Assembly (NCBI GenBank): GCA_947478005.1
Contig: CANJVG010000028.1
Coordinates: 1-32,220, forward strand
Length of the DNA stretch: 32,220 nt
Source: Bacteroidota bacterium
Lineage (GTDB): Bacteria; Bacteroidota; Bacteroidia; Chitinophagales; LD1
Reading direction: 5' to 3'
Under the pieces are notes generated by a model that ran no database searches, was not told the origin of the DNA, and was given only the letters and a program-made list of their open reading frames with translations. Shown piece after piece: positions 2,168-25,431 of the stretch. The translations under genes were made by a program, and so were the position numbers. Each line of letters opens with the position of its first letter. The first letter of the stretch is position 1.

Positions 2168-2296
2168 CCTACATCCTCACCCATCGTTTCATAATCGTAG
2201 CATCCTTGGTTTTAATTTCGGCTATGTAAACACCGTTAGCAAGAGACGCAGTTGACAGTTGGCAGTTGACAGTTGACGGTAAAACAGCCATTACCA
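2168..2296 (-). repeat. 129-bp near-duplicate encoding a T9SS sorting domain end (copy 1)
   Basis: This segment aligns without gaps to 3910-4038; it covers the stop codon and the last ~42 codons of the two adjacent surface-protein genes. It includes a heptamer stretch, on the coding strand TCAACTG CCAACTG TCAACTG, at about 2250-2277. The conservation is higher than in the rest of the shared modules, suggesting recent duplication or gene conversion. Confidence 0.75.
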
Positions 2297-3758: not shown

Positions 3759-3764
3759 GGCATT

Positions 3765-3880
3765 TTATTTTTTGATGATGAGTTCTTTCATAGTAGACCC
3801 ATAGTTTTTAGTAATGGGTTTTGTGCAAACGCGAAGGAACTTGTAATAAAAAAGATAGCCGAAAGTAGAGTTTTTTTCAT
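3765..3880 (-). pseudogene. Collapsed T9SS gene: orphan signal peptide plus C-terminal tail
   Basis: From ATG at 3880 the frame encodes a good signal peptide, MKKTLLSAIFFITSSFAFAQ, followed by only ten residues and a stop (TGA, 3790-3788). Overlapping in another frame, 3791-3765 reads MKELIIKK then TAA, a sequence typical of the very end of T9SS sorting domains. The simplest reading is a T9SS protein gene whose middle was deleted, leaving its first 25 or so codons joined out of frame to its last 9 or more. It lies between two intact T9SS genes on the same strand. The C-terminal assignment rests on only eight residues. Confidence 0.5.
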
Positions 3881-3909
3881 CATTTCTGATTAGCAACCCA
3901 AAATATAAA

Positions 3910-4038
3910 CCTACATCTTCACCCATCTTCTTTTCACCATAGCATCTTTCGTTTTTATTTCGGCTATGTAAACTCCGTTGGCAAGAGATGCAGTTGACAG
4001 TTGGCAGTTGACAGTTGACGGTAAAACAGCCATTACCA
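3910..4038 (-). repeat. 129-bp near-duplicate encoding a T9SS sorting domain end (copy 2)
   Basis: Partner of 2168-2296, same orientation, 1742 bp away. The same TCAACTG/CCAACTG heptamers lie at about 3992-4019. It encodes the shared tail running from MAVLPSTVNCQLSTASLANG to the stop. Confidence 0.75.
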
Positions 4039-6448
4039 AACTGCCAGTAGTGTTATAAATATTTACCCGCTCAATAGCTGCGCCATTAGTTTGAATAAAC
4101 AGTTTATCGGTAGCCGGGTTTGGATACAAACTAATACTGCTTGTCGCCTCTACATTTGCTACACCCGTTGCTGTAATACTGATAATATTCGAAAGCACTT
4201 GCGTGCCGCCACTGCGGGCAGCTGTGCAGGTATACGACCAGTTGGCCGCTATGCGGTAAAGCGCATTCGGGTGCGTGCTAAAGTTAATGTCGGTAGCCGT
4301 ATATTGATTACCCGGCACATTCACTAATAAGGTCCAGGTACCATTAGCCAAAGCGTCTATCATTACATCAAACGAACTAACCGGTGTAGTATCATTTTCA
4401 ATTTCATATACATTCCAAATCAAATTACCTGTGCCCAAATATTGCAGGTGAATGGTATTGTGATAAGCACTCAATACCCCTTCATTTACACAGGTATCTT
4501 TGGCAGAAATTTTATAGCGGTAAGCCGTTACATTAGGGTTAGCCGCATAATCATGAAACTCGCTCAGACTGTCGCCATGCACAGCCCCTATTTTCTGATA
4601 GTTGTTCGTGCTTATTTCGCGATAGATGTAAAAACTGTCAGTCGCATCGCGGTCAACTTTTTCCCACACCACCACATTATGTGTAGAAGCTGAATCAACC
4701 GTTACAAAACAAATAGGCTGAAGAGGAGCCTGCGCCAGATTCACCTGAGTATTTCCCGTTGCGTGGCAAGTAGTTACCGTATCGGTCAAAGCCACATGGT
4801 AAGTAGTGCTCGCTACCGGGCTTACCGATGGATTCACCACCGAAGTATTCAATCCTCCACCGGTCCATAAATAACTGCCGTTGGTCAATGGCGTTCCGCC
4901 AAGCGTAACGCTGCCATTCGGACAAATACTAAACACCGAATCGGTAATTTGCAACGAAGGCAAAAGCGAAAAATTAACCACCGTAGAATCCGAAGCACTG
5001 CAACCGGTAGCATTGTACACATCCGTTACATAAATAGTAGTGGTAGAAGTAGGGGTAATGGAAAGCACAGCCGTAGTATCTGAAATACCTGCGGGATTAC
5101 TGCTCCAAATATGCGATTCAGACCCTGCACCCGCCCTATATAAAAGCACCGCACTGCCATCGCAATGCCAGTAAGACGAAGCAAAAGGAAGTTCAGTTAC
5201 AGGACCACGTTTCACCAAAACTTTGGTACCTAAATAAGAAGTTTGAGTAGCGGGGTTGGTAGAGTAAATTGCTAACTCATCGAGCGAAGTGCTACCCGAA
5301 GTCATGGCTTGCGGCACCTTAAATGTATAAGTGCCCGCTGTAGTACCGGCTATCGAATCTGTTGTTCCACTGTTCGCAAAATAGTTGGCTCCGTTTAATC
5401 TCAATTTAAAATGATTGCCAGCATTAAAAGTAAGCGAAGAAGAAAAAGTAACACTAATCAAATCGCGCTCACAAAGTGTATCAGGTGTAAATGCCGAAAT
5501 TGCAAAACTGCTGGCGGGGTCATACTCCCAAAAACTTATACCGGTGCAACTATTTGAATTGCCCATAAAGCCACGGCTGCCTATGGTCATTCCGCAAATA
5601 GCCGAATGAAATTGATCGCAGGGGGTACCCGAAGGATACGGATAACCGCTGATAGACGACCAGGAATTACCCGCAGGATTATACACTGCCACCGTACCGT
5701 GGTAACCGGTCATATTATTAGGGTCGGCTACATAAATCAGGTTATTCAACACAAATGAATACACCGAGCTGTAAGTTGCAGTAGTTAAATGATGTGGTGC
5801 TTTAGTCTGCCAGCTATCGGCTAGAGGATTATACTCATACACCGAATCAAGATGAGAAGTTCCCCAATTTGCCGTAGCCAAGCCACAGTACGCCTTGCCA
5901 TTTGCTACAGCCGAAAAGCCACTGTATATAGCCGAAGGCAAACTATCTTTTTGACTCCATGAATTAGTAGCAGAGTTATACGCAAAACATTTCGGGCTGG
6001 AGCCCCCATTTGCACCTCTGTCACCACCCGCAAAATAACCGGTATTACTAATGCAAAAAGCAAACACTCCCGATAAGGTATCGGGGTAATTTGCTTTAGC
6101 CGCCCAGCTATCGGTTACAGGATTATATTGATAAAAATCACTCAACCTGTTGGAAGCACTAACAGAACCGGTACCTATATACCCAAAACTATCGGTAGCA
6201 AAACCTGCGGCATCAAACCGTGCCCCACCGGGAAAGTTGGCTTTGGCAGTCCATGTGTTTGCGGCAGGGTCGTATGTATAAAAATTGTTGGTAGCTTCTC
6301 CCGTGTACATATAGCCCACAGCATTAATGCTGAAAGAAACACTGCCTTTATTGTTTGAAGGGCAGTTAACTTTTTGTTGCCAAAGCCCTTGAGCACTTGC
6401 GGCAAAACCCAAAAACAGAATGGATAGAAGTGTAAAATATTTTTTCAT
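3911..6448 (-). CDS. Secreted Kelch-type beta-propeller protein with T9SS sorting domain
   Basis: 845 residues from ATG at 6448 (MKKYFTLLSILFLGFAASAQ, a clear signal peptide); the open frame upstream to 6523 lacks a signal and is probably untranslated. Residues about 20-320 contain Kelch-like repeats with recurring YNPxTxSWxxKAxxP motifs, predicting a beta-propeller. About 420-615 are two Ig/PKD-like repeats (SPVASTTYHVALTDT). About 615-770 is the fibronectin III-like module shared with the downstream LRR protein, and about 770-845 is the T9SS sorting domain. Likely a surface-exposed binding protein; no enzymatic motif seen. The gene ends in TAG. Confidence 0.88.
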   Translation of the reverse strand: MKKYFTLLSILFLGFAASAQGLWQQKVNCPSNNKGSVSFSINAVGYMYTGEATNNFYTYDPAANTWTAKANFPGGARFDAAGFATDSFGYIGTGSVSASNRLSDFYQYNPVTDSWAAKANYPDTLSGVFAFCISNTGYFAGGDRGANGGSSPKCFAYNSATNSWSQKDSLPSAIYSGFSAVANGKAYCGLATANWGTSHLDSVYEYNPLADSWQTKAPHHLTTATYSSVYSFVLNNLIYVADPNNMTGYHGTVAVYNPAGNSWSSISGYPYPSGTPCDQFHSAICGMTIGSRGFMGNSNSCTGISFWEYDPASSFAISAFTPDTLCERDLISVTFSSSLTFNAGNHFKLRLNGANYFANSGTTDSIAGTTAGTYTFKVPQAMTSGSTSLDELAIYSTNPATQTSYLGTKVLVKRGPVTELPFASSYWHCDGSAVLLYRAGAGSESHIWSSNPAGISDTTAVLSITPTSTTTIYVTDVYNATGCSASDSTVVNFSLLPSLQITDSVFSICPNGSVTLGGTPLTNGSYLWTGGGLNTSVVNPSVSPVASTTYHVALTDTVTTCHATGNTQVNLAQAPLQPICFVTVDSASTHNVVVWEKVDRDATDSFYIYREISTNNYQKIGAVHGDSLSEFHDYAANPNVTAYRYKISAKDTCVNEGVLSAYHNTIHLQYLGTGNLIWNVYEIENDTTPVSSFDVMIDALANGTWTLLVNVPGNQYTATDINFSTHPNALYRIAANWSYTCTAARSGGTQVLSNIISITATGVANVEATSSISLYPNPATDKLFIQTNGAAIERVNIYNTTGSLVMAVLPSTVNCQLSTASLANGVYIAEIKTKDAMVKRRWVKM

Positions 6449-6585
6449 GGTAGGGTGTTTAAGAATGGGAAAGTAGATTAAGTATTTCGAAGGGCGAAAT
6501 TTATTTGCGGGCACCAAAATCATGCTGTAAAACTGCTGTGTTCAAATGGCTTTACATTTTAAGCTAAAGCATTACTTTCGTCATC

Positions 6586-7092
6586 ATGAAAAAATACATA
6601 CTGCTTCTTTCGCTTCCCTTTATGCTGCAGGCAGCATTCGGGCAAAAACTAAACAAAGATTTAGTTTATGGACACTGGACAGCTTACTATGCCTCTAATC
6701 CTTCATTTGCTATGCACACTGACAGCACTGCAGAATACGTAGGGCGAATGGTAAAAACTCCTATTGCACAGGCACCTTCGCATCTCCTAAGCGCTGAAGA
6801 TTCTATCAAACTTGTAAAACAAAACGAATTGCTCAGCAAATGGGTTGATTCCAGTTTTATTGAGTTAGATAAAACAGGAAAATTTAAAGGAGAAATTTAC
6901 TTTACCGATGAAGGCGACAGACCCCATCGCGAAAACGGCAACTTTGCCTGGTCGGGTAGCCAGCTCCTTTTAAATGGAAAAGATCAAACTGTGTTGTCAG
7001 TAAAATCTTTAACGGCTAAAGACCTGGTGGTTATCATTAACGAAGGCGGCAAACCCGAAGAAGTAACAACGCTTAAATTCAAAAGGAAGTAA
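6586..7092 (+). CDS. Small secreted protein of unknown function
   Basis: 168 residues. Signal peptide MKKYILLLSLPFMLQAAFGQ, then a compact domain with alternating polar/hydrophobic strands (YGHWTAYYASNP, GKFKGEIYFTDEGD, GNFAWSGSQLLLNG, DLVVIINEGGKPEEVTTLKFKRK). The strand pattern resembles lipocalin-like or copper-resistance-type small beta-barrels, but I see no diagnostic motif. It is a single-gene unit, followed by a strong terminator. The -7-like sequence TACTTTCG at 6573-6580 precedes it. Confidence 0.75.
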   Translation: MKKYILLLSLPFMLQAAFGQKLNKDLVYGHWTAYYASNPSFAMHTDSTAEYVGRMVKTPIAQAPSHLLSAEDSIKLVKQNELLSKWVDSSFIELDKTGKFKGEIYFTDEGDRPHRENGNFAWSGSQLLLNGKDQTVLSVKSLTAKDLVVIINEGGKPEEVTTLKFKRK

Positions 7093-7123
7093 CCAACATT
7101 TTTGCTCCACCAAAAAGTTTGTC

Positions 7124-7158
7124 AAAGCAGGGTATCCGTTTCGGGACCCTGCTTTTTT
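7124..7158 (+). terminator. Rho-independent terminator
   Basis: Perfect 10-bp stem AAAGCAGGGT (7124-7133) with ACCCTGCTTT (7146-7155), a 12-base loop, then further Ts. It ends the 6586-7092 transcript and separates it from the oxygenase cluster. Confidence 0.85.
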
Positions 7159-7204
7159 GTTTTCAACTCTTCCTTTCTTACTCCTAAACTTCTTTCCTAA
7201 AAAT

Positions 7205-7212
7205 TAAATTTG
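7205..7212 (+). promoter_or_regulatory. Bacteroidota-type -7 element at the start of the oxygenase cluster
   Basis: TAAATTTG matches the TAnnTTTG consensus exactly and ends four bases before the ATG at 7217. If used, the transcript would be leaderless or nearly so. No convincing -33 TTTG is seen. Confidence 0.4.
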
Positions 7213-7216
7213 CTGA

Positions 7217-8035
7217 ATGAAGGTTCCGCAGAACAATACCGGTGATTTTTTAAAGCAAATAAAAGAGCAGGGCTTTTGTGTGGTAGAAAATGTATTGGAT
7301 AGCACCATGGTTACCAAACTTCGTGAACAGTCGCAAATAGCTATTGATAAAGAAGCCGCCTACCACGGCAACAAAACCTATGGTTTATATGGAGGTGTGC
7401 AGGCTTGCCCTATGTATGGCGGGGCTTTTCTCGAAGCGCTGGAGAACAGAAGCCTGATGGAACCCATGACCGAAGTAATGGGCGAGGGAAATATCATTTG
7501 GACCTACATTACCACCTCCATGCCGCCCGATGATAAAAATTTTTCTACCCGCATGCATGTTGACCGGCCCCGTTTGTTTCCTAACTATTGCGAAAGCATA
7601 GGTGCCCTCATTCTGCTCGATGATTTTACCGAACAAAACGGAGGCACCTGGTACCTGCCCGGCTCGCATAACCGCATAGATGTTCCTACCGAAGAAGAAT
7701 TTTATGCCAAAGCCATTCGCCTACAGGCAAAAGCCGGAAGCGTGTTTTACTTTAACCTGCGCCTTTGGCATGCGGGCGGTTACAACGCCACAAAACAATG
7801 GCGGCACGCCCTCATCATTGCCGTTATGCGCCCTTACATAAAGCCCAAATTTGATTTTGTAAAAATGCTTTCCCTTCATGGCATCAATGCCGATGAACTA
7901 AGCAATTATGTAAAACAGAAATTGGGTTTCTTTGCCATACCGCCCGCCACCTTAGATGAATTTTGGAAAGAAGATAAAAAAACCTACCTCGAAATAAGCG
8001 AGTGGGAAATTGCAAAAAGAGAATTGGAAAACTAA
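7217..8035 (+). CDS. Phytanoyl-CoA dioxygenase (PhyH) family Fe(II)/2OG oxygenase
   Basis: 272 residues, the usual PhyH length. Iron ligands are visible as H114-V-D116 (TRMHVDRPR) and distal His185 (LRLWHAGGYN); Arg196 (QWRHALIIAV) is placed to bind the 2OG carboxylate. LPGSHNR (148-153) is the conserved turn of the family. PhyH enzymes hydroxylate, and in some lineages halogenate or epimerise, lipids, sugars and natural products using Fe(II), O2 and 2OG; the substrate here is unknown. It is the first gene of a five-gene plus-strand set; the next gene starts 9 bp downstream. The full ligand set predicts an active oxygenase. Confidence 0.87.
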   Translation: MKVPQNNTGDFLKQIKEQGFCVVENVLDSTMVTKLREQSQIAIDKEAAYHGNKTYGLYGGVQACPMYGGAFLEALENRSLMEPMTEVMGEGNIIWTYITTSMPPDDKNFSTRMHVDRPRLFPNYCESIGALILLDDFTEQNGGTWYLPGSHNRIDVPTEEEFYAKAIRLQAKAGSVFYFNLRLWHAGGYNATKQWRHALIIAVMRPYIKPKFDFVKMLSLHGINADELSNYVKQKLGFFAIPPATLDEFWKEDKKTYLEISEWEIAKRELEN

Positions 8036-8044
8036 AACCCGGAA

Positions 8045-8863
8045 GTGAAATATTCTCTCAACAAAACCGAAATTGATTTAGCACTTCACCAGCCGACAAT
8101 GAGTGATGCAGCTGTTGAATTTGGGCATACCGATTTGATGAGTGAAAACCTAAAGTGGTATGGCAGAGGTTACACGCCTATACGTATGTCTTCTGCGTTT
8201 GTAAAAAACATTCAAACCAAAACAGCAGCGTATATTGAGCAATGCACACAAGATGTTTTAGGTATTGATTTAAAATCGCTTACTGCTTATCACCAACAGG
8301 TATTGACCGATGAAGAGCACCTAAAAGTAGTTAAACGCATGGGCAAATTGATTGCCCCCGGGCAATTGGGTATTGATGTAAAAGCACTGGCGCAAAAAGT
8401 AAAACAGCATTGCAAACTTGACTATGAACTTGGCTGCCGTAATGTATGCGACATTCGCATTTTTCGTCCATGGCGGGGACGAGCGATGGACAACAATCCT
8501 CTGCACCGTGATACCTGGTTGCCTATTCTCAACAACTGCATCAATGTTTACATTCCTGTCGCAGGTAATACACGCTTGAGTTCGCTTAGTGTAATACCCG
8601 GCAGCCATTTATGGAAACGCGAAGAAGTAGAGCGCACAGCCACCAACGCACTCATCAATGGTGTGCAATACGGTTTGCCATCCGTTACCGGAATAAAAAG
8701 AAAGTTCAAAGTCATTCGCCCTGCACTTGCCCAAAACGAAGTCTTACTTTTTTCATCGAACATGATTCATGGCGGTGCCGTTAATTTGAATAAAGATACT
8801 ACAAGAGTGAGTATTGAAATACGATTTTGGGATGTAAAGACAATAGCAAAAACGGCCTTCTGA
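8045..8863 (+). CDS. PhyH-like Fe(II)/2OG oxygenase
   Basis: 272 residues from a GTG at 8045, nine bases after the previous stop; ATG at 8099 is an alternative. Ligands: H154-R-D156 (NPLHRDTWLP), distal His242 (NMIHGGAVN), and Arg254 (TTRVSIEIRFW) for 2OG. VIPGSH at 183-188 is the PhyH turn. The long N-terminal region (1-135) is not similar to the preceding protein. The complete triad predicts an active oxygenase of unknown substrate, probably cotranscribed with the upstream PhyH gene. Confidence 0.8.
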   Translation: MKYSLNKTEIDLALHQPTMSDAAVEFGHTDLMSENLKWYGRGYTPIRMSSAFVKNIQTKTAAYIEQCTQDVLGIDLKSLTAYHQQVLTDEEHLKVVKRMGKLIAPGQLGIDVKALAQKVKQHCKLDYELGCRNVCDIRIFRPWRGRAMDNNPLHRDTWLPILNNCINVYIPVAGNTRLSSLSVIPGSHLWKREEVERTATNALINGVQYGLPSVTGIKRKFKVIRPALAQNEVLLFSSNMIHGGAVNLNKDTTRVSIEIRFWDVKTIAKTAF

Positions 8864-8921
8864 TTTTCCAACATTCTTTTGTCTCAACGTCCTTTTTATA
8901 AATTCGTGTAAAAGAAAAGAT

Positions 8922-9944
8922 ATGAAACCCGCAGGCATTACTCAAAAGCAGTGGCTCCAATACAACTTCTATTTCATTCTCGAACATTTTATCGGTTTAA
9001 AACTTTCCGAAAAATATTTGAAGCCACGCAAACTCAAATTGTTTCACGAAGCACTTAATAACAATCCAGGTATTCGCGAAAGAGCGCAGAACATCAATAT
9101 AAAAGATATAGAGCGCACCAGCTTTGAGCAAATAAAAGACCAGCGCGAAATATTATTGCAAACTCCGCTCGTGTTTCGCGGGGCAGCCAAAGAATGGGAG
9201 GCGGTGAAACTCTGGAGCAAAGAATTTTTCAGAGACCAGCATGGCGACACACCGGTAACTATTATTGATAACCCGGGCTTGGTGGATAAAGACAAAGAGA
9301 ATGTGTTCAAGCACACCAACTTTGCCGAGTATTTTAAAGAAGTAGAAAAAGACAAATCGAAATACCTGCGCTTTTCACGCGTGCTTGATAACAACCCCCA
9401 ACTGCTCAAATACTTAAATATGGATTGGCTGCGGCAATTTAAAGCCAACCTAAGTGTAGGTGACCAAACCTTTTTATTCATAGGCGAAGGCGATACCAAA
9501 ACACCTATGCACGCAGCACTATCGCATACCATCTTCGTTCAGATAAAAGGAAAAAAACGCTGGATAATCTGCGCACCCAACGAGCGTTTCTTCACCGACC
9601 CTGTTGCCGGTCGTCTGCTGTATTACTATACTAATGGCGACATTACCAATAACAACGACCCTAACTATACGTTAATGCCTTACGTTAGAAAATACGATGT
9701 AATTTTAGATGAAGGCGATGTGCTTTGGCTGCCTTCTTACTTTTGGCACCACGTAGAAAATGTAACGCCAACTATTGGAGTGGCATTCAAATATCAAAAC
9801 TTAGCAGAGAGCTGGAAGATAACCAAGACCATGTTTATTTTAAATTTTCTGGCTACTAAACCTACTATCCTGCGCTCCTACATTTACAACCTGCTCAACA
9901 AACAGGATTATATTTATAACACCAAGAGCGCCAAGTTTCATTGA
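8922..9944 (+). CDS. Cupin_8/JmjC-fold protein with HxA in place of HxD
   Basis: 340 residues. The C-terminal half has the layout of factor-inhibiting-HIF (FIH)-like cupin_8/JmjC oxygenases: TPMHAALSHTIFVQIKGKKRW, then ILDEGDVLWLPSYFWHHVEN. Against FIH (T196, H199, D201, K214, H279) this gives Thr194, His197, Ala199, Lys212 and His276. Thus the 2OG-contacting Thr and Lys and both iron His are kept, while the carboxylate ligand is Ala (codon 9516-9518). That HxA pattern is known from Fe/2OG halogenases such as SyrB2, where chloride fills the open site; loss of Asp can also mark an inactive protein. Paralogous to the next gene; both start MKPA. Sits 58 bp after the PhyH gene. Confidence 0.82.
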   Translation: MKPAGITQKQWLQYNFYFILEHFIGLKLSEKYLKPRKLKLFHEALNNNPGIRERAQNINIKDIERTSFEQIKDQREILLQTPLVFRGAAKEWEAVKLWSKEFFRDQHGDTPVTIIDNPGLVDKDKENVFKHTNFAEYFKEVEKDKSKYLRFSRVLDNNPQLLKYLNMDWLRQFKANLSVGDQTFLFIGEGDTKTPMHAALSHTIFVQIKGKKRWIICAPNERFFTDPVAGRLLYYYTNGDITNNNDPNYTLMPYVRKYDVILDEGDVLWLPSYFWHHVENVTPTIGVAFKYQNLAESWKITKTMFILNFLATKPTILRSYIYNLLNKQDYIYNTKSAKFH

Positions 9945-9986
9945 GGAAGAAAAGGAGTTTAAGATTTATGCTCCCGAAAAATAATC

Positions 9987-9994
9987 TAGATTTG
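9987..9994 (+). promoter_or_regulatory. Candidate -7 promoter element upstream of the second cupin gene
   Basis: TAGATTTG matches TAnnTTTG exactly and lies 25 bp before the ATG at 10020, a normal distance. A T-rich TTTA about 20 bp upstream is a weak -33 candidate. It suggests that the second cupin gene can be transcribed on its own. Confidence 0.45.
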
Positions 9995-10019
9995 TTGTGG
10001 ACATTAAAACGAAGAAAGT

Positions 10020-11087
10020 ATGAAACCTGCTAACGTAAAAACCATAGATTGGTATCAATACAATGCGCTCTTTTTTATGGAGCATATTTTGGGTTATCCA
10101 AGGTTCAAAAAATATTTTGGCGAGCGTCAAAAGAAGCTTTACGAAAAAATTGACAAGTATTTAGCCGGCACAGAAACTACTAAAACATTCGAAGTAGATA
10201 TAGTAGATAACAACCTTACCGAAGAAGAATTTATCAAGCAGTGCTATAACCCTGTACTGCCTAAAGTATTTAAGGGTGCGGCTAAAGATTGGGAAGCAGT
10301 AAAAAAATGGAACCTCGATTACTTTGAAAAGGAACACGGACACTACCAAATATTAATGATAGACAACGTAGGTCTTGCCGATGACCAGCAATTTGAAAGC
10401 ACTACCTTTGGCAAGTACATTCAGGAGTTGCGTCAGGGTTCGCGCAAATATTTGAAGTTTTCAAACGTGGTGAACGAACACGAAAACCTCAAAACCCATT
10501 TCGATTTAAAGTGGCTGCGCAAACTCAATAAACTACCCTTTGGCTGGGGCGAAGACTTAAAAATGTTTATGGGTATTGGCGGCACAGTTACACCGTTGCA
10601 TGTTGGGTTTAGTCCGGTTTTGTTTGTACAAGTTATGGGGCAAAAGAAATGGACGTTCTATCCATCTACCGATCGTATGTTTTTAGATGCCCGCACCGAG
10701 CGCACTTCGTACATGTTCAGCAATGCAGATCCATACAACAGAAACAATCCTGATTATCCATTGCAAAAGTATGCACAACAATATCAGGTAACGCTTGACC
10801 CGGGCGATGTGCTTTGGTTTCCATCTTTTACCTGGCACCATGTAGAGAATCTTTCTACGACCATTGGTATTCGTTATGGAAGAAGCACCCTTGGTTGTGC
10901 ATGGAAATCATCGAAGATGATGACTATACTTATTTTCCTGGCTACAAAGCCATCTGCATTAGAGCACTTCATTACTTCCTATCGGGAGAAGAAAAATATT
11001 CTCACCTTTATGAAAAGCCAGGAGCAATTGAACAATTCTCCGATAGAAAAAATAAATCCGCTGAAGAGCGCAGCTAATGCAGGATAA
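10020..11087 (+). CDS. Cupin_8/JmjC-fold protein with HxG in place of HxD
   Basis: 355 residues, paralogous along its whole length to the preceding protein (shared VF(R/K)GAAK-WEAVK-W, TPxH, QxxGxKxW, GDVLW-PS-xWHHVEN). Key positions: Thr191, His194, Gly196 (codon 10605-10607), Lys209 and His273. The FIH-type iron ligand Asp is Gly; everything else expected for iron and 2OG binding is present. HxG is the ligand pair of WelO5- and BesD-type halogenases, which have different fold subfamilies. The C-terminus is a longer charged tail (about 310-355). Either halogenase-like chemistry or a degenerate pseudo-enzyme is possible; retention of 2OG residues in both paralogs favours function. Confidence 0.82.
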   Translation: MKPANVKTIDWYQYNALFFMEHILGYPRFKKYFGERQKKLYEKIDKYLAGTETTKTFEVDIVDNNLTEEEFIKQCYNPVLPKVFKGAAKDWEAVKKWNLDYFEKEHGHYQILMIDNVGLADDQQFESTTFGKYIQELRQGSRKYLKFSNVVNEHENLKTHFDLKWLRKLNKLPFGWGEDLKMFMGIGGTVTPLHVGFSPVLFVQVMGQKKWTFYPSTDRMFLDARTERTSYMFSNADPYNRNNPDYPLQKYAQQYQVTLDPGDVLWFPSFTWHHVENLSTTIGIRYGRSTLGCAWKSSKMMTILIFLATKPSALEHFITSYREKKNILTFMKSQEQLNNSPIEKINPLKSAANAG

Positions 11088-11146
11088 GTAAATCTGCAAC
11101 TTAATAGCGTTACGGTAAAAAAATACCGGTGCGGTTTCGGTAAGAC

Positions 11147-12277
11147 ATGGCAAAACATAAACAAAACAAAAGTGCAAGTACAGTAACTCTATCAAAAGGT
11201 CTACCCTTTTGGCAACACAGGCACTTTTTTAAGGGGCTTGTGCTGTTGTTTGCCTTTCTTCTGTTTGTCAATTCCATTCCTAATGATTCCAACTTGGATG
11301 ATGAGTTGGTAACGATTAACCACCGGCTTACATCAAAGGGAATTGATGCCATACCCGAAATTTTTACTTCCCCTTATTATCAAGATGCTCAGGGGTACTC
11401 CTATGAATACCGTCCGGTAGTGCTGGCTTCGTTTGCTATAGAACATCAGTTCTTTGGCGACAACCCGCATGTAGGTCATTTCTTCAATGTTGTTTTATAT
11501 GCACTTTGCTGTTTGGTGCTTTATCTTGTATTGCTTCGGTTATTTAAAAACCAATCGCACATTATTCCCTTAGCTATTACCTTGCTATTTATAGCGCATC
11601 CTGCGCATACTGAAGTAGTATGCAGCATCAAAAACCGCGATGAAATACTCGGGCTGTTGTTTTGTTTTCTCTCACTACTCAGTGCTTTAATAGCTATTCA
11701 GAACTCCAAAAGATGGCTTCTGATTTTAGTACCAGTGTTCTTTGCATTGGCACTCATGAGTAAGGTTACGGTTATCTCATTTGTCATTCTCACTCCATTG
11801 GCAATTATTTTGTTTACCGATGCTGGATTTAGAACTATCCTGTTGACTACGCTTCTGCTTCAAATTCCGAGTTATTTTCTGCTCAACCTAAGCAGTGGAT
11901 TTGAAAGAGCAATGGCGCAGCTGGGTATAACAACAGTCGTAATAATATTTTACGGGTTAACACATTTAAGGGCTGTTCTCAGTTCTTTAAAAAACCTATT
12001 CGTTTATATAGTTGAAGCATTATTTACGAAGAAAGCATCTGTCATTTCTGAAGACAACTCAACTAACAGCGAATATGGATTCAAAGATATATTCAAAGGG
12101 ATAATACCTACCAAAGATTTATTTGGGTTTCGTCCGCTTCTGCTTACCAGAGCTTTGGCCAGCCTTTATTTGTTTTTAATGCATCAGCGTTATTCGTTGT
12201 ACGCTTCGTTATCTTTAGCCCTATTGCTTCTTTTAGCCTGGAAAGGAGACAAAAAATCTCTTGGCGGGCTGGCGTAA
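11147..12277 (+). pseudogene. GT-C-like multi-pass membrane protein, 3'-truncated
   Basis: 376 residues with about eight or nine hydrophobic segments. After the first helix comes a DDE motif (NLDDELVTINHRLTSKGI, Asp51-Asp52), as in GT-C glycosyltransferases of the PMT/TMTC type; SYEYRPVVLASFAIEH and AHPAHTEVVCSIKNRDE also fit that group. Relatives continue with further helices and often TPR repeats. Here the frame stops at 12277, yet a neighbouring frame continues AGVMMSLSLALNLYNFSIG to about 12355, where an oppositely oriented truncated PhyH gene abuts. I infer a frameshift plus loss of the 3' end. Role if active: transfer of sugars from a polyprenyl carrier at the membrane. The family call is moderate. 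Confidence 0.65.
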
Positions 12278-12297
12278 TGATGAGTCTTTCACTTGCT

Positions 12298-12753
12298 CTA
12301 AATCTGTACAATTTCTCTATAGGCGTTGAGCATTTGGGAATAAATAGTAATGGGTCCATTCTCCAACGTAATATTGGTCAACGGCACCCAACAATTTAGG
12401 GCTACGTGTTTTGTTTCATCCACAATAGTCCAGTCTTGATGCGCGGCAAGTTCGCTATTGGCGCCCGGAACTTTGTATAAAAATGCGGCACCAAAAGGAG
12501 TGTAGTTAGTAAAAATTTCTTGGTAAGCGCGGTCAAAATTTTTTACAATGTCATTACTCGCTTTCTTTTTGTAATCAATATCGCTACTATAACTGCCGCT
12601 GAAAAAACCACCATCCTTAATGTTTGGGTGCAATTCATCAAAAAGCAAATTGAGTTGCGCTACTTCATCTTTAGAAATAAACGGCAATACGATAAATCCT
12701 TGTTTATCGAAGAGCAATTGGTGTTCATCGTTCAAAAAAATTCTTTTGCTCAT
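12298..12753 (-). pseudogene. PhyH-family oxygenase truncated after its HxD motif
   Basis: 151 residues, about half the family length. The N-terminal half is normal (DKQGFIVLPF, H105-Q-D107 in AAHQDWTIVDE, CWVPLTNITLENG). After ENG (residue 133, about 12355) the expected LPGSH turn, distal His and 2OG-binding Arg are absent and 18 unrelated residues lead to a TAG. The foreign end overlaps the antisense continuation of the plus-strand GT-C gene, so both genes appear to have lost their 3' ends in one event. It cannot bind iron and 2OG as it stands. Its ATG overlaps the preceding gene's stop by four bases, marking it as the last gene of the minus-strand operon. Confidence 0.8.
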
Positions 12754-13721
12754 TCTTGGAGAAAAGATTTTAACCGCTGCAAAATGTTTTTCTTTTCAGG
12801 TGTAGTCGAAACGGTTTTTGGTTCTTCTGCTTTCTGCAAAACAGGTTTTGCTTTTTCAATTAAAGCTCGCGCGTTCGATTTTTCAAAATGAGCTTCAAAA
12901 TAATTTTTATCCGCAAGCGGAAAATTATAATCTACCACACCTAACGATTTTCCCACCTTTGGTCGGTCTTTAATGTTCTCGCCAAACTGCTCAAAGTTGG
13001 TCATGAAATTATCGTCCTGCGCAAACGCTTCTACTTGGTTCGCATTGTTTTTATCCCAATAATAAGTTCTGAACTCTGAGCTTTGATGGGTGAAATAAGT
13101 GTTGGTTACAATTCTGATTCCATTCGAAAAATTAGGTGGCGAATAATGAATAATGCTTTGGTCGAAGAAAACCGCTTCGCCCGCTTTAATGATAACCGGT
13201 TGCATATAATCAATCATGTCATCCATCACTGGGCTGAAAAATTCGGGAATACTACTGCCACGATACGTTGGGAAAATTCGATGGCTACCTGGCAACACAA
13301 ACAATGTTCCGTTTTCAATAGTCAAATCAATCAACGGCACCCAAATATTTATACCTGTAAAACGGCTTTCATCCACCAAACTTATATCTTGGTGCACACA
13401 CATGCCACTTTCGGGTCCAGGGCTTTTGACGATGAAAGAACCGCACACCACTTTTATATCACAACAATATTTTTCGATACTGCGATTGCCAATGCGTTTT
13501 ATTTCTGAATCGGCTTCGTTTCTATAATTTTTGTCGTTCGAAAATGTGCTGGGGAAAAACCCTTTTTCGTCTTTGGGGTGCAAGCGATGATACAAAGCAT
13601 CTAACTCATTTATTTCTTGGATATCATAAAAAGGCAAAATGATAAAACCATTTTTCTCAAAGTCGCGCTGATGATTTTCATCGCGAAATACTTTCAACAT
13701 TTTATCGGGAAACTGAAACAT
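12750..13721 (-). CDS. PhyH-family Fe(II)/2OG oxygenase
   Basis: 323 residues. Complete motif set: H110-Q-D112 (CVHQDISLVDE), LPGSHR at 143-148, distal His192 (SIIHYSPPN) and Arg203 (GIRIVTNTYF). An N-terminal FEKNGFIILPF strand opens the fold. The C-terminal ~70 residues extend beyond the catalytic core, rich in Lys/Glu, ending ILQRLKSFLQE; a similar tail (HKLKSFLGF) ends the first PhyH of the operon. Met8 is an alternative start. It lies 33 bp after the tandem-PhyH gene and overlaps the truncated PhyH gene by four bases. Predicted active; substrate unknown. Confidence 0.87.
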   Translation of the reverse strand: MFQFPDKMLKVFRDENHQRDFEKNGFIILPFYDIQEINELDALYHRLHPKDEKGFFPSTFSNDKNYRNEADSEIKRIGNRSIEKYCCDIKVVCGSFIVKSPGPESGMCVHQDISLVDESRFTGINIWVPLIDLTIENGTLFVLPGSHRIFPTYRGSSIPEFFSPVMDDMIDYMQPVIIKAGEAVFFDQSIIHYSPPNFSNGIRIVTNTYFTHQSSEFRTYYWDKNNANQVEAFAQDDNFMTNFEQFGENIKDRPKVGKSLGVVDYNFPLADKNYFEAHFEKSNARALIEKAKPVLQKAEEPKTVSTTPEKKNILQRLKSFLQE

Positions 13722-13754
13722 GAGATTCGGTCAAAATTGAAGCTATTTTTTGTT

Positions 13755-15694
13755 CTAAGCAGTCGTTAATTTCTTTTTGATTTCGCGGGCAATATTCAAT
13801 GGCGTATATTTTTGAAAAAAACTTCGCTGATCATTCCACACCAAAGGTGTTGGCTTTTCTTCTTCGCGCTTTACTTCTTCCACTACGTCTTCTTGTTTTT
13901 GCTCAACGGTTTGTCGCGCATTGATATAACCAAAAAGCTTTGCCAACTTTTCCGTCATCGGAATATTGTATTCGTTACCTGCCGCTTTTATCATCTCAAT
14001 CAATTCATCGACCGTGTAATCGGGAAAACTATACCACTCTTCCACAGGCTCACCATACCCTTCAATCAACTTACCTTCGCTAAACATGCGCGAGAGCGTG
14101 GCGTTTTCATACTTCAAATAAAAATCCTCATCCACGTTGTAGCGCAACATCGTTTTGAATGTGCCATCGGGCTTCGTGTGATAATGCACAAATTGCGCAT
14201 CTTTTTGTGTAACGCCCACGCCCACTGCCAATCGCAATCCATCGGAAGTATTCGGAGGCGAAGCGTGAAAAGTTCTATTATCAAACATCAAAACTTCACC
14301 CGCTTTCATTTCAATGGTATGCAGATATGGAAAAATGCTGAACATGTGACTGCTCAACGGCACTGGTGTTTGTGTTGATGGCGATGGACGTTTGTTCTGC
14401 ATGAACTGATGACTCCCTCGAATAACACCCATGCAACCGTTATCTAAATTCGTATCTACGAGTGTAATCCAACAAGTGATAGACGCGAAACCTTCTTCCT
14501 CTCTGTCCACAAAACTCCAATCCTGATGCGCAGGCACCACACCTTTCGGGTTTATTTCTTTCACTACATAGCTTGCTACAAATGGTTTAAAGTCTTTTAA
14601 GTGCTCACTCAGTTTTGGCAAAGCCACACCCCAAATTTTCGCTCTGATATTGCGACACATCTCTTTATCTTTTTGATCCATGCTTACGTGAAAACCTAAG
14701 CCATTTTCATCTTTCAAATTCAGTGCTTCGTAATAATTTTTTAAGTCAAGCACTTCACTTTCGTTGAGCAATGGATAAACCACATAGCCTTCGCGTTCGA
14801 AAAACTTTTGTTTTTCTTCTTCTTGAAAAATGGGAGGCATTTTAAAATTGCTCATGGTTTTCCTGTGTTGAAATTGTTGTTGCATCGCTTTGTATTCTGA
14901 CGCGGCAACATATTTTTGTTTATAAATAAATTTCTCTTGCAGCATTCCGCTCTGTGGTCGTTGCCCAATTTGGGTGTTGTAGTTTTGAAAAAAGTTTTCG
15001 TCCACTAAATATTTTTCTGTTTCTCCGTTTTCGTTTTGATGATAGAACTGCAATTGTGCTTTTGCATCTATCAAACCAAACGTTGCGGCAAGTCTTGGTG
15101 TAGCAGAATTATTTGCAGGCGAAGCGTGTAGCAATGCGTGCGAAAAAATAAATGCATATCCCGCTTTCATCGGTAGCAATTGCAAATCGTTTCGCATTTC
15201 TGCTCCCACATTTTTAAACGGACTTTGCATAGAAGGCGAGCGCAATGCAGAACTAAAGTTATGACTGCCTGGTATCACTTGTATCGCCCCATTTTTTGCA
15301 TCCACATCTTGCAACGGCACCCAAATAGTAATCGAATCAAATTGCGTTTCATCAACCACCGTCCAATCTTGATTAATGGGCATTTCGCTTTGCGCGCCCG
15401 GTTGTTTGGTCAAAAAGCAAGCACCGAGAGATTTTATTGGATTGAAAACAGATTCAACCTTTGGCGCAAAAACAGTTGCAATGGTATCGCTAAACTGTTT
15501 TCGTTTTTTTCATCGGCATTAAAACTGGTGGAGTAAAAGCCGTTGCCACTATTTTCATTTGAAGAGGAATAAAAATCATTCAACTCCTTGACTTTTTCCT
15601 CTGACAAAAACGGCACGACAACAAAACCATTTAGGTCAAATTGTTTTTGCAGTTCGGCATTTTCAAAAATCGCAGTTCTCATGTTTTTCTTCAT
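13755..15694 (-). pseudogene. Tandem PhyH-PhyH protein, one frameshift
   Basis: Two frames join into one protein of about 646 residues if a single base is restored in the A-run near 15492-15497 (coding-strand T-run). The first frame (15694 down) reads NENS and should continue FSDTIATVFAPKVESVFNPI into LTKQPGAQSEMPINQDW. Domain 1 has N108-Q-D110 instead of HxD (codon 15374-15372, AAT where CAT is expected) but keeps a distal His (LLHASPANN) and Arg. Domain 2 has the full set: VPAHQDWSFVD, TFHASPPN and LRLAVGV. A tail ending IAREIKKKLTTA follows. As sequenced, translation would stop at about 15435, so it is marked broken. Its ATG overlaps the Wzm stop (TAATG). Confidence 0.8.
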
Positions 15695-16509
15695 TAGGCA
15701 TAATCAACCATACTGTCTTCCACGCGGCTAAAATACCAAGTGCCCGCTAGCATAACGAGCAATAGGATTGAAATTGAAATCCAGTAAAATGGTTCAGGAA
15801 ACGGTTCGCCTAACAAAGCAAAACGATAACCACGAATAATTCCGGCCATAGGATTGGCATAGACAAAGGCTTCGTAGCCTGCAGGAATAATAGTGGTTGG
15901 AAAAAAAACAGGCGTAACCCAAACGCCAATGCCAATGATGGTGGGCAAAATTTGATTCAAGTCGCGGAAGCGAATGCTCAGCGCGTTCATCCAAATAGCT
16001 ACCGTATAACCGCAAATAATATTCAGCAAAATAAAAAGTGGTAGCGTGAATAGATTGGTAGCAAAACCTACGCGTTCATACGCCATAAGCAAGAACAAAA
16101 TCACGAAAGAAATTCCTGCTTCCACACAAGCAATAATAATTTTGGAGAGCGGTAAAATGAGTTTTGGGAAATACATTTTGCGAATCAAGTTTTGTTTTTG
16201 CACAATAGCACTTGAGGCATTGTTGGTGATGTTGGAAAACAAATTCCACGCAATCATTCCGGTGAAAGCAAATAAATAATAAGGCGTTTGTGTAGCAACG
16301 TGCAAAAAGAATTTGAAGATAACGGTGAATATGGTGAGCATTACGAGGGGACGTATAACCGTCCATAAAATTCCAAAGTAGGTTTGCGCATACAAGGTTT
16401 TTAATTCCTGTTGCGCAAAAACCCAAATCAAACTTCTATACTTGATTAGCTCTTTGGCGTACTCGCTTATCGTTAAAGGTTCAGCCGTAATAATTTTTAC
16501 TTGCGCCAT
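15694..16509 (-). CDS. ABC-2 type polysaccharide export permease (Wzm/TagG/KpsM family)
   Basis: 271 residues with about six membrane helices. The N-terminal cytoplasmic segment and first helix carry the family signature (LIWVFAQQELKTLYAQTYFG then ILWTVIRPLVMLTIFTVIFK); IRFRDLNQILP and YANPMAGIIRGYR are further conserved stretches. This permease normally works with a Wzt/TagH ATPase to export O-antigen or other undecaprenyl-linked glycans across the inner membrane. No ATPase gene lies in the window. It is embedded in an operon of PhyH oxygenases: 3 bp after one and overlapping the next by one base. This suggests that the oxygenases modify an exported glycan or its precursor. Confidence 0.92.
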   Translation of the reverse strand: MAQVKIITAEPLTISEYAKELIKYRSLIWVFAQQELKTLYAQTYFGILWTVIRPLVMLTIFTVIFKFFLHVATQTPYYLFAFTGMIAWNLFSNITNNASSAIVQKQNLIRKMYFPKLILPLSKIIIACVEAGISFVILFLLMAYERVGFATNLFTLPLFILLNIICGYTVAIWMNALSIRFRDLNQILPTIIGIGVWVTPVFFPTTIIPAGYEAFVYANPMAGIIRGYRFALLGEPFPEPFYWISISILLLVMLAGTWYFSRVEDSMVDYA

Positions 16510-16512
16510 AAA

Positions 16513-17442
16513 TTAGTTTGCGGCATTAGTAAAACCTAAAAATGATTTGAGTTTATGGGAGAATGAAGCAGGAGCGGCTTCATCAAATCGTGGCGCGAAA
16601 ATATTTTCACCAAACTCATTTTTGTTTATAGCAAACGGCTGATAGCTGAATGACCTCAACACTTTTACATTCTCGGGTTTTTTCCAAGGATTGAATTGCA
16701 TGTAAAAATTGGTATCCACTTCCAACACTTGCACCTTATCGGGATTGGTAGCTGAATACATGTGATAGTGAATTGATTTTTCTTCGGAAGGCACTAAAAT
16801 CAATTGAATAGCCAAACGTAAATTATTGGTTTTGTTCAACGCAGAATAATGAATAATGCTATCTTCTAACACCACCGATTCCCCTGCTTTAATATTCATC
16901 GGTTTCAAATGATGGTTAATGATATCATGCTTAATACCTTCGTGTTCCCAAGGAATCATGGGCCCGCGAATTTCTCCAAAAAGCGTATGGATTCCCCGCA
17001 CCACCTGCAATGTTCCGTTAGTTTCGTTGCTATTCACCAACGGAAACCAAATAGAAACCGAAATGCATGTGCGCTCATCTACGAACGCGCAGTTTTGATG
17101 CAGGGGCACTTCACCAGTATCTGTGTTTTTGAGAATATCGTTGGCGATGCAGGGGCGATAATCTGCCAGCCATTTTTTAACATGCGGCTGAAAATATTTT
17201 GTGATTATATCGTAAACGGCTTGTTTAAATTCAGGGTTTTTGTCAATGAACGTGAAGTCGTAGGTAATAGGAATGCCAATGCCTATTTCATCGGCAGTAA
17301 TGTTTCCACTGCTCTTGAGTAGCAAATCGAAAAATCCTTTTTTCAAATCGGCTACTTCTTGCGCATTCAAAAAAGGAATAGTTACGTATCCATCTTTTTG
17401 AAATTGTTGCTCCAAATCTTCATCGTTCATTACCGCTCTCAT
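16513..17442 (-). CDS. PhyH-family protein with HxN iron motif
   Basis: 309 residues from the ATG at 17442 (the frame opens with TTG at 17448). The HxD motif is H115-Q-N117 (PLHQNCAFVDE, Asn codon 17094-17092), so the carboxylate ligand is an amide. The distal His198 (SIIHYSALN) and Arg209 (NNLRLAIQL) are kept; the LPGSH turn is VRGIH. Asn is a poor iron ligand, so activity may be altered or lost. It is the first gene of the minus-strand operon, 3 bp ahead of the Wzm gene. Its C-terminal HKLKSFLGF tail resembles that of the PhyH at 12750. Confidence 0.85.
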   Translation of the reverse strand: MRAVMNDEDLEQQFQKDGYVTIPFLNAQEVADLKKGFFDLLLKSSGNITADEIGIGIPITYDFTFIDKNPEFKQAVYDIITKYFQPHVKKWLADYRPCIANDILKNTDTGEVPLHQNCAFVDERTCISVSIWFPLVNSNETNGTLQVVRGIHTLFGEIRGPMIPWEHEGIKHDIINHHLKPMNIKAGESVVLEDSIIHYSALNKTNNLRLAIQLILVPSEEKSIHYHMYSATNPDKVQVLEVDTNFYMQFNPWKKPENVKVLRSFSYQPFAINKNEFGENIFAPRFDEAAPASFSHKLKSFLGFTNAAN

Positions 17443-17459
17443 GCGCAAACTATTTTCGT

Positions 17460-18752: not shown

Positions 18753-20225
18753 ATGGAGTTTATGAAAACAGCGGTATTGTCGATTGCTATTCTATTTTTT
18801 TGCGCCAGCCTTTTTGCGCAGGATGTTCCCTTAGTGGTCTTCGTGTCACGCCCGGTTTCAACTGTGCTTCAGTTTCCGATGGAGAGCGACCAATGGTCCA
18901 ACTCGCCCTTGATGAAAAACAAACCCATGGACCCTATGTCTACTGTGGTGCTGCCACCCGCTGTCCCCCCTAAGCGAGAGCCATTACCACCATCTATACT
19001 CGCTGTTGACACGGTATGGCTTGAAAACAATACGCCAATTACTGCCACCGGAGTTTTTGATTATGACAGTTCTAAAACGGATAATGGATTAACCCTGCTC
19101 GATCAGGCTACAAGAAGTTGTTTAGTGGATATGAATGGAAAAATATTAAAAAAACTTCCCTTCGGCTTTCCCACTGTTTTCCCCGATGGCAGCATGGTTG
19201 GTCAAATGGGGGCTTACTTGGTGAAATATGATGCGGATATGAATCTTCTTTGGAAAATAATGGCCGGTGCTCATCATGAAATTACAACCGATGCAAATGG
19301 GGCTATCTATCTATTGTCAAGCGATTCCCATGAATATATGGGTTTGAATATACGGTTTGATGAACTAAAGATTTTCTCTGCAGATGGTGATTTAATATAC
19401 ACATGGACTGTCTACGACCACCTCAAGGAATTTTTCGCTATCATTTCAAAGTCTACATTCGTCAGTGGACTATATAACCAATATGATTCTACAAAAGGAA
19501 TAGAAGAGTATATTGCCCAAGACCCCAGCCTTTTTTTTAACCACGAGACTGGCGATACGACATGTAATTTTGAATTAACTCATTTTAATTCCATTCAGGT
19601 ACTTCCCGACAACGATGTTGCGAGAAAGATACCGGCCTTTAAAAAGGGTAATCTTCTTTTGAGTTTTAATCCTTACGCATGCTATGGCATTTTAGATACG
19701 TCAACCCACAAAATTGAGTGGGTGGGTTACTTGCCGGAAAGAACAACTTTGCATACGCCTATTTTAACAGCTACCGGCACCATTCTGATTTTCCAAAACA
19801 GTACACCGAGCAGAAAATCTCAATCGCAAGATGACCAGCCGTGTATGAAATACTTGAATAAACATATTTCTTCCAAAAGAATGAGTCGGAATCCGCCCTC
19901 CCGAAATTGGGTGAGTGTTAGCGAGTATAACCCTTTGACAGGCTCCAAAGTGTGGGAATATACAGCCGATCCAAAAGAATCTTTGCATGCAGACGGCCTG
20001 GGTAGTGCCCAACGCTTATGGAATGGCAATACGTTAGTTTGTGTAGCGACCGAACTGCATGGAAAAGGTGGCCGTATTTTCGAGGTAACTCCTGAAAAGA
20101 AAATAGTCTGGTCGTATATATCTCCCGAAATTGATCACGAGCACAAATTTCCTTGTTGCTTCTATAGAGCTAAGCGCGTTAGTTACGATATAGCCGAGAA
20201 GGTCGTTCCGGGTTTTAAGCATTAA
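18753..20225 (+). CDS. Secreted arylsulfotransferase (ASST)-like beta-propeller protein
   Basis: 490 residues; signal peptide ends SLFAQ near residue 23. Met4 (18762), preceded by GGAG, may be the true start. After a Pro-rich linker (60-85) the body has propeller-like repeats: AGAHHEITTDANGAIYLLSS (~171-190), HFNSIQVLPDND, GNLLLSFNPYACYGILDTS, LHTPILTATGTILIFQNS, SEYNPLTGSKVWEYTADP and GRIFEVTPEKKIVWSYISPE. His-containing turns followed by DANG and the closing KIVW strand fit the ASST/arylsulfotransferase_2 group, which transfers sulfate between phenolic esters in the periplasm. I cannot place the catalytic His firmly. It heads a plus-strand group with an outer-membrane barrel and a phosphodiesterase-type enzyme. 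Confidence 0.68.
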   Translation: MEFMKTAVLSIAILFFCASLFAQDVPLVVFVSRPVSTVLQFPMESDQWSNSPLMKNKPMDPMSTVVLPPAVPPKREPLPPSILAVDTVWLENNTPITATGVFDYDSSKTDNGLTLLDQATRSCLVDMNGKILKKLPFGFPTVFPDGSMVGQMGAYLVKYDADMNLLWKIMAGAHHEITTDANGAIYLLSSDSHEYMGLNIRFDELKIFSADGDLIYTWTVYDHLKEFFAIISKSTFVSGLYNQYDSTKGIEEYIAQDPSLFFNHETGDTTCNFELTHFNSIQVLPDNDVARKIPAFKKGNLLLSFNPYACYGILDTSTHKIEWVGYLPERTTLHTPILTATGTILIFQNSTPSRKSQSQDDQPCMKYLNKHISSKRMSRNPPSRNWVSVSEYNPLTGSKVWEYTADPKESLHADGLGSAQRLWNGNTLVCVATELHGKGGRIFEVTPEKKIVWSYISPEIDHEHKFPCCFYRAKRVSYDIAEKVVPGFKH

Positions 20226-25157: not shown

Positions 25158-25431
25158 AGCAATGCCTTGGGTAGCCAGAGTTTGATTTTCTTTTACAAGC
25201 GATTTGCGTTTGTTCGTGCTTTGCCCGATTTCGTTCATTCGTTTTTGTGCAAAGCATTTGCCTTGGTATGGAAAATCTATCTGCCAATTCAGCGCAGGCT
25301 TAAATTTTTATAGCTAAAATCCTTTTCGGTCAAGTAGCGTTCCCGCAAATTCTCCGGGAGTAGCAAAATCAAATTTTCTTTCTGCAAACTTGCACCTCTT
25401 TTTTTAATACAATCAATTCTGTTTCCGCAAT

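Follow-up and report, generated by a model that had tools for sequence, protein, structure and literature searches.

Genes for Fe(II)/2-oxoglutarate (2OG) oxygenases of the PhyH and cupin_8/JmjC families are crowded on both strands of a contig from a Bacteroidota bacterium (CANJVG010000028.1 of assembly GCA_947478005.1), together with a gene for a Wzm-type permease, and the question raised by this locus is which of these genes belong to one system and what that system makes. The window analysed here is the entire contig (C28; 32,220 nucleotides, nt) of a draft genome of 3.99 Mb in 230 contigs, listed as 96.9% complete with 1.94% contamination. An earlier note on this DNA had described two convergent gene sets and suggested that they tailor a single exported product. 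Its genes are all in place by open reading frame (ORF) reading and Pfam scores, and its list of iron motifs (HVD, HRD, HAA, HVG, HQN, NQD and three times HQD) reads as given. The unit, however, was drawn wrongly: a recurrent operon of Bacteroidota is represented here by the minus-strand set alone (17448-12298). For this strand the idea of a system holds, with better support than the note could have had, though the window copy is a poor one, and the gene array is more than chance, given the 23 PhyH matches of the source genome, spread over contigs C17, C28, C46 and C64, and the recurrence in relatives.

Matches to the Pfam PhyH family (PF05721) were found in 42 of the 60 genomes searched, the source genome included. 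At least six such matches occur in 25 of the 30 genomes of its family, and one or three in two others; the remaining three, which are of the same genus, lack any. The order recurring around these genes is Wzm, A, B-C, D, E, F, sometimes with a TMTC-like gene (a name coined in this analysis) in front, where A to F are PhyH classes named from the genes of an array on contig C64 (A, the tandem B-C, D and E) and, for F, from a single gene on C46. An alignment scan with class A, keeping one genome per species, gave 57 loci, mostly in metagenome genomes labelled Bacteroidetes, Chitinophagales or Flavobacteriales, with two labelled Lysobacterales and Verrucomicrobia. These loci were fetched by two peptide patterns, one of which contains HxN, and 52 of the 56 class A ORFs carry the other too; the genomes that seeded the profiles overlap with this test set, and two of its loci, L096 and L113, belong to the same metagenome genome. 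Profile matches per 57 loci amount to 56 for A, 33 for B, 50 for C, 45 for D, 42 for E and 39 for F, with 41 for Wzm, 21 for Wzt, seven for WelO5 and one for cupin_8. The PhyH array directly follows Wzm on the same strand in 39 of the 57. The search for the same neighbourhood in other genomes, which the earlier note had proposed, thereby bore out the minus strand and not the plus-strand set.

Runs on a single strand from Wzm to Wzt were found in 12 loci, with four to eight PhyH domains (five in nine of the runs), and in 11 of the 12 a putative methyltransferase is encoded between the array and Wzt. Behind Wzm the genes are closely packed, the median gap being 2 nt and 157 of 200 gaps being at most 20 nt when starts are set at the first start codon. 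In the window, D and E overlap by 4 nt and Wzm and B-C by 1 nt, as the note had it, although A and Wzm are separated by 3 nt and B-C and D by 33 nt. Many Flavobacteriales copies have the order Wzm, C, A, D, E, F, methyltransferase, Wzt, without B. Class A was found in none of 394 other genomes drawn from the phylum (E 1e-40), so that the system is rare overall. The PhyH arrays of L020-L021, L036, L049, L191 and L192 sit in long surface-glycan-like gene regions with several radical-SAM-like proteins (by eye), Asp/Asn hydroxylase homologues, cupin_8 and GT-C-like genes.

In a tree of 185 PhyH domains, taken from 25 of the 57 loci and the copies of the source genome, with class labels assigned by profile before tree building, one clade each holds all domains of A (27/27), C (28/28), D (26/26), E (27/27) and F (27/27), and 21 of the 22 B domains fall in one clade. 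Because the classes are separate clades, a division of labour is supported and redundancy disfavoured, and this separation is the strongest evidence for it. The note had argued for a division of labour from the differing iron motifs; the conclusion stands through the clades, although several of the listed motifs come from a decaying copy. A lineage-specific amplification without specialised roles might be read from the PhyH copy number, which varies between 0 and 23 among the genomes of the family, and from the copies outside A-F, which do not group as one clade. Such an amplification is nevertheless very improbable, as A and C-F are separate clades common to Chitinophagales- and Flavobacteriales-labelled genomes, and class A is set apart by a fixed HxN motif.

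This motif occupies the iron site in 56 of the 56 class A domains of the 57 loci; the second His and the Arg are kept in 54, the remaining two being cut short. It is likewise found in all of 20 aligned class A sequences, the window's included, which were drawn from PhyH Pfam hits independently of HxN (L027 was omitted from 21, and two distant hits of L021 were excluded as not class A). Weaker matches to the class A profile, a few of which are pieces of class A genes, have His-x-Asp, His and Arg (HDHR) in 271 of 277 cases. Class A departs from the canonical H-x-D...H triad, which the other classes have, except for domain B of the window (NQD); class A proteins may be enzymes whose iron site is altered, or else partner proteins. 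The AlphaFold model of the window protein, for which 35 of 40 listed sequences and the window's were aligned, has a predicted PhyH fold closest to SnoK (Z 18.0, root-mean-square deviation 3.5 over 220 residues), followed by SnoN, the CurA halogenase domain, PHYHD1 and AviO1; SyrB2, HygX and EvdMO1 are included in the Foldseek list for the same model.

The ATP-binding cassette (ABC)-dependent O-antigen route finishes its lipid-linked polymer inside the cytosol, a compartment open to 2OG enzymes. One branch of this route has a Wzt whose C-terminal carbohydrate-binding domain passes only chains with a chemically changed end. The Wzm profile (A6), from an alignment of 20 of 38 listed sequences and the window's, matches the transport permease 6m96_B at 124.7 bits; we take this structure to be Aquifex Wzm, and 8dku to be Aquifex WzmWzt. 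C17 encodes a Wzt (L014:9798-11099), which closes a second PhyH block. A profile built from 17 Wzt proteins (16 of 17 listed and the C17 copy) aligns over positions 11-379 with 8dku_A at 318.7 bits, and the alignment runs beyond the ATPase portion, of about 235 positions, and on through the C-terminal domain. By this likeness the Wzt of C17 and its relatives is of the cap-reading O-antigen type, with a predicted C-terminal carbohydrate-binding domain, and the C17 protein presumably pairs with the window Wzm. In Aquifex aeolicus, the C-terminal domain of Wzt recognises a methylated sugar at the chain end, and capped chains depend on this domain for their export (PMC9445017). The second block (L014:3703-11099), with five PhyH genes (one tandem), a WelO5-type protein and Wzt, recurs in L017, L028, L031, L037 and L040, and the WelO5-type protein is present in five of these six genomes. 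The Wzt and the WelO5-type protein on C17, as well as the intact paralogue on C64, lay beyond the view of the earlier note.

The WelO5-type protein of C17 (L014:4513-5430; 305 amino acids) matches the full Pfam WelO5 profile (PF22814; 204 bits, E 4e-60), and its own profile matches the WelO5 structures 5j4r and 5iqs at 113 bits. It is the one match in the source genome, and there is none on the window contig. Its HCG, present in this protein and four close orthologues (5/5), aligns with HVG of the WelO5 relatives 8aut and 6gem. WelO5-type halogenases are described as having Gly or Ala in place of the acid, which leaves room for the halide (PMC8407142). WelO5 members occur in 27 of the 396 genomes searched in the order, including 18 of the 30 genomes of the source organism's family, and a PhyH gene lies within the 1.5-kb flanks of 22 of 30 WelO5-family loci. 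The motif, read in 29 of these 30 loci, is HCG in 18, HCE in five, HxD in four and HIH in two; among the 57 loci there are seven further WelO5 loci, of which the six read (one protein each) all have HCG. Because HxD, HxE and other residues occur, not every member of the family need be a halogenase. The five proteins with His-Cys-Glu at the iron site are those of L128, L134, L135, L136 and L143. A genome of another family, G176 (7.5 Mb on one contig), has a single strand run in which WelO5 (HCG) directly precedes Wzm and is followed further by F, a methyltransferase and Wzt; upstream of this run lies a PhyH gene on the opposite (plus) strand, then B.C, D.E and a gene for a 393-amino-acid protein.

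It is probable, in our judgement, that the minus-strand operon, now decaying in the window, makes and exports an oxidised surface polysaccharide, which would be tailored in the cytosol before export by Wzm/Wzt. A lipid-linked O-polysaccharide would be completed in the cytosol by the ABC-dependent route, and the cytosolic PhyH classes A-F and, in most of the complete runs, the methyltransferase, all encoded between Wzm and Wzt, would act one after another. The target of the PhyH proteins might be the polymer or its non-reducing end, and the reaction hydroxylation, stereo-inversion or ring closure. In genomes having one, the WelO5-type halogenase of the same blocks might chlorinate the polymer or its end, and Wzm/Wzt export would follow tailoring. 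The array might be tied to Wzm/Wzt because the polymer is finished in the cytosol, within reach of 2OG enzymes.

The fold neighbours of the class A model are largely natural-product oxygenases (SnoK, SnoN, the CurA halogenase, AviO1, HygX and EvdMO1), KAS III, GT2 and GNAT genes lie upstream in L081, and WelO5 itself belongs to alkaloid pathways (PMC8407142). These points would suit an operon that makes and exports a small secreted natural product, such as an orthosomycin-like oligosaccharide or a halogenated metabolite. Such a product is unlikely, as the exporter pair matches Wzm/Wzt with a C-terminal domain that reads polymer ends, and no assembly line of non-ribosomal peptide synthetases or polyketide synthases was noticed, though no search was aimed at one. 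Many PhyH proteins act on acyl chains, and a KAS III gene (L081) or a UbiA gene (L079) is found near some copies; the PhyH proteins might thus act on the lipid part (lipid A, the carrier lipid or another membrane lipid), the exporter being a mere genomic neighbour. The PhyH genes lie between wzm and wzt in the 12 complete runs and, in 39 loci, directly behind wzm at the small gaps given above, which makes a lipid target quite improbable.

Several observations weigh against an operon for oxidised polysaccharide export. No polymerase or full glycosyltransferase set was traced. The composition varies, with B, E and F matched in 33, 42 and 39 of the 57 loci and with C before A and no B in many Flavobacteriales copies. 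Wzm is missing from the stretch examined in 16 of the 57 loci, 13 of which have more than 7 kb upstream; the intact C64 copy is without Wzm and the window is without Wzt. At E 0.001, PhyH is without a match in three genomes of the same genus (G007, G012 and G016), and the 20 kb examined of G176 showed no class A. The methyltransferase profile is generic, matching 30 of the 57 loci, in eight of these on the opposite strand (by eye). As regards halogenation, the WelO5 family is absent from 12 of the 30 family genomes (some incomplete) and present in only seven of the 57 loci, the C17 gene is on the strand opposite its PhyH neighbours, and members of the family without HxG exist.

The state of the window copy is best seen beside the array on C64 (L015:10690-15530, minus strand), where PhyH genes for 307, 646 (tandem), 324 and 313 amino acids are all open and in the same order. 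The C64 array has no Wzm, whereas the window Wzm lies between A and B-C. The note had described a tandem PhyH protein starting at TTG 15413; its two PhyH stretches are real, but the gene begins at ATG 15694 and switches frame near an A-run at 15510-15504, and the remainder (13755..15509) aligns with residues 64-646 of the C64 copy at 76.7% identity. The motif of domain B is NQD in the window and HQD in all 21 intact orthologues read, namely the C64 copy and 20 from relatives at least 44% identical to it (six more distant or one-domain sequences, one of them with RQE, were omitted). NQD, counted by the note among the distinct motifs, was rejected as a specialised motif, since the orthologues have HQD and only the frameshifted copy differs; it looks like a lost iron ligand and thus like decay. 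The GT-C-like gene and the truncated PhyH gene of the note are present, although both are 5' fragments, of genes for 932-984 and about 310 amino acids, and both break off at a junction between 12253 and 12343: the E fragment matches residues 1-137 of the 313-residue C64 copy at 78.8%, and full-length TMTC-like homologues on C17 and in relatives define the larger size.

In G009 (L022), a TMTC-like gene (4171-6987, plus) and E (6984-7904, minus) converge intact with a 4-nt overlap. Because this genome has the same pair intact, the convergent layout of the window is probably inherited, and a chimeric assembly was rejected as its cause. A deletion at the convergence point would probably account for both missing 3' parts. 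The assembly may also be locally wrong at 12253-12343, and, considering the contamination listed, the contig as a whole might come from a close relative.

Nonsynonymous divergence (dN) between window and C64 is 0.20 for A, 0.17 for B-C, 0.13 for D and 0.14 for the E part, while synonymous divergence (dS) is at least 2.2 or beyond calculation; no date for the divergence of the two copies was obtained, as dS is saturated. Because dN is low with dS saturated, both copies have presumably been long under selection, and the decay is recent or partly sequencing error. This long selection, together with the open A, D and Wzm genes, speaks against taking the window copy as a dead remnant in this organism, a collection of defunct surface-glycan genes, to which the B-C frameshift with its lost iron ligand, the E and TMTC-like genes cut at the junction, the further gene remnants at 24347-25331 and the intact copy on C64 all point. 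The window Wzm, which is without an orthologue on C64, may still be needed, and the single A-run frameshift could be a sequencing error of the draft genome. A dead remnant is a possibility to be taken seriously, though on balance we doubt it. The remnants at 24347-25331 belong to two further gene families of C17, one being an SGNH-like piece (58.7% identity over 75 amino acids) and the other an Asp/Asn beta-hydroxylase (63.5%) left as a 97-amino-acid ORF.

On the plus strand, the genes seem to be accessory members of a larger region devoted to surface glycans. The note had set the plus and minus sets side by side as equal partners, a proposal which was rejected on three counts. At E 1e-20 the PhyH gene at 7217 is confined to its own genome (1/30), none of the 29 others of the family having a relative; cupin_8 is matched in a single locus of the 57; and the relatives of the 8045 protein, found in eight of the 29 other family genomes and once on C17, are encoded apart from the A or B-C gene, on another contig in seven of the eight genomes and about 84 kb away in one. 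Of the two plus-strand PhyH genes claimed, 7217 exceeds the PhyH cut-off of 22 bits, as do A, B-C, D and the E fragment, whereas 8045 falls under it and is only PhyH-like. Twelve close cupin_8 homologues were read (three of the own genome and nine of relatives; a second copy in G026 lies outside this count), with nine HxG, two HxA and one HxD; H-x-D is absent from 11 of the 12, both window proteins (HAA and HVG) included. At least eight of the nine relatives with a close cupin_8 homologue have PhyH genes on the same contig. A model of the 10020 cupin from two sequences reached a predicted local distance difference test score (pLDDT) of 33.8 and was not used.

A bolder form of the polysaccharide reading brings these proteins together: the WelO5-type halogenase, the Gly/Ala-site cupin_8, the HxN class A and four or five ordinary PhyH domains would act on a polymer or its cap, giving a halogenated, multiply oxidised surface polysaccharide that Wzt reads before export. 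This is conceivable and rather doubtful. If true, it would be, to our knowledge, the first route known to a halogenated exported bacterial polysaccharide, and unusual carboxylate-less iron sites would occur in two further oxygenase folds.

Table 1. Features of the operon copy and its plus-strand neighbours in the window
Feature	Coordinates	Strand	Evidence
PhyH class A, HQN at iron site (H-x-N for H-x-D)	16513..17448	-	PF05721 54.0 bits; AlphaFold pLDDT 87.2
Wzm-type permease of O-polysaccharide-type ABC exporter	15694..16509	-	PF01061 (ABC2_membrane) 49.4 bits
Tandem PhyH B-C, N-terminal part severed by frameshift	15434..15694	-	ORF; matches residues 1-62 of intact C64 copy
Tandem PhyH B-C, remainder in different frame; domain B NQD	13755..15509	-	PF05721 147 bits, two stretches
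PhyH class D, intact, HQD	12750..13721	-	72.5 bits; 80% identical to C64 copy
PhyH class E, 3'-truncated fragment, 151 amino acids	12298..12753	-	25.7 bits
Junction of truncated E and truncated TMTC-like gene	12253..12343		Homology ends: TMTC 12253, E 12343
TMTC-like GT-C membrane protein, 5' fragment, 376 of about 940 amino acids	11147..12277	+	PF13231 (PMT_2) 31.4 bits
Cupin_8/JmjC-type protein, HVG at iron site (accessory)	10020..11087	+	PF13621 96.3 bits
Cupin_8/JmjC-type protein, HAA at iron site (accessory)	8922..9944	+	PF13621 88.8 bits
PhyH-like protein, HRD (accessory)	8045..8863	+	20.1 bits, under cut-off
PhyH protein, HVD (accessory)	7217..8035	+	83.1 bits

Elsewhere in the window, a GDSL/SGNH-like protein at 905-2110 is split into two ORFs; the identical split occurs in the relative G001 (L043), and it may accordingly be real instead of decay. 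Two secreted-looking proteins at 2169-6523 have a similar C-terminal end, presumably a type IX secretion sorting domain (by eye). An arylsulfotransferase-like protein (PF14269, 30.0 bits) is encoded at 18753-20225, and a type I phosphodiesterase/sulfatase-like protein (PF01663, 88.2 bits) at 21649-23616; the former has a 63% homologue in G017 (L029), encoded some 5 kb away from the A-F operon.

Little is known of the chemistry of surface polysaccharides in uncultured aquatic Bacteroidota, and an oxygenase array between the halves of a cap-reading exporter predicts new, testable cap or polymer chemistry. It offers five or six distinct PhyH classes, among them one in which a non-canonical iron site is conserved, and the tie of a halogenase-family protein to glycan export would broaden the uses of carbon-halogen chemistry. 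Among the matches listed from open-access PMC text, neither a PhyH array with Wzm/Wzt nor a linked halogenase was found. Likenesses to known systems exist for the single parts. EvdO2, HygX and AviO1 (orthosomycins) and SnoN and SnoK (nogalamycin) are oxygenases which we take to act on sugars. SnoK, SnoN and AviO1 have the same fold as the class A model (structural Z 15.7-18.0), and SnoN, SnoK and EvdO2 give weak profile matches (EvdO2 at E 2e-4); class A, at about 15-19% identity, differs from these enzymes in its HxN and in its linkage to an exporter. The C17 protein shares HxG and a full-profile match with WelO5/AmbO5, described as halogenases of free substrates (PMC8407142), but its gene, which lies outside the window, is linked to PhyH and Wzm/Wzt and not to an alkaloid pathway. 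In Xanthomonas citri, the PhyH gene XAC3597 is found in a lipopolysaccharide locus with wzm and wzt, as here; the accessible part of that paper names one PhyH gene and mentions no halogenase (PMC3130047), whereas five or six PhyH classes are found here. With WzmWzt of Aquifex aeolicus (PMC9445017), the operon shares the Wzm permease and a Wzt with a C-terminal domain, and a putative methyltransferase accompanies them in 11 of the 12 complete runs; unlike that system, it encodes PhyH domains, four to eight in number, between wzm and wzt and has, in some genomes, a WelO5-type protein in or beside it. Collectively, the locus resembles the known Wzm/Wzt kind for capped O-polysaccharides, with an unusual tailoring set.

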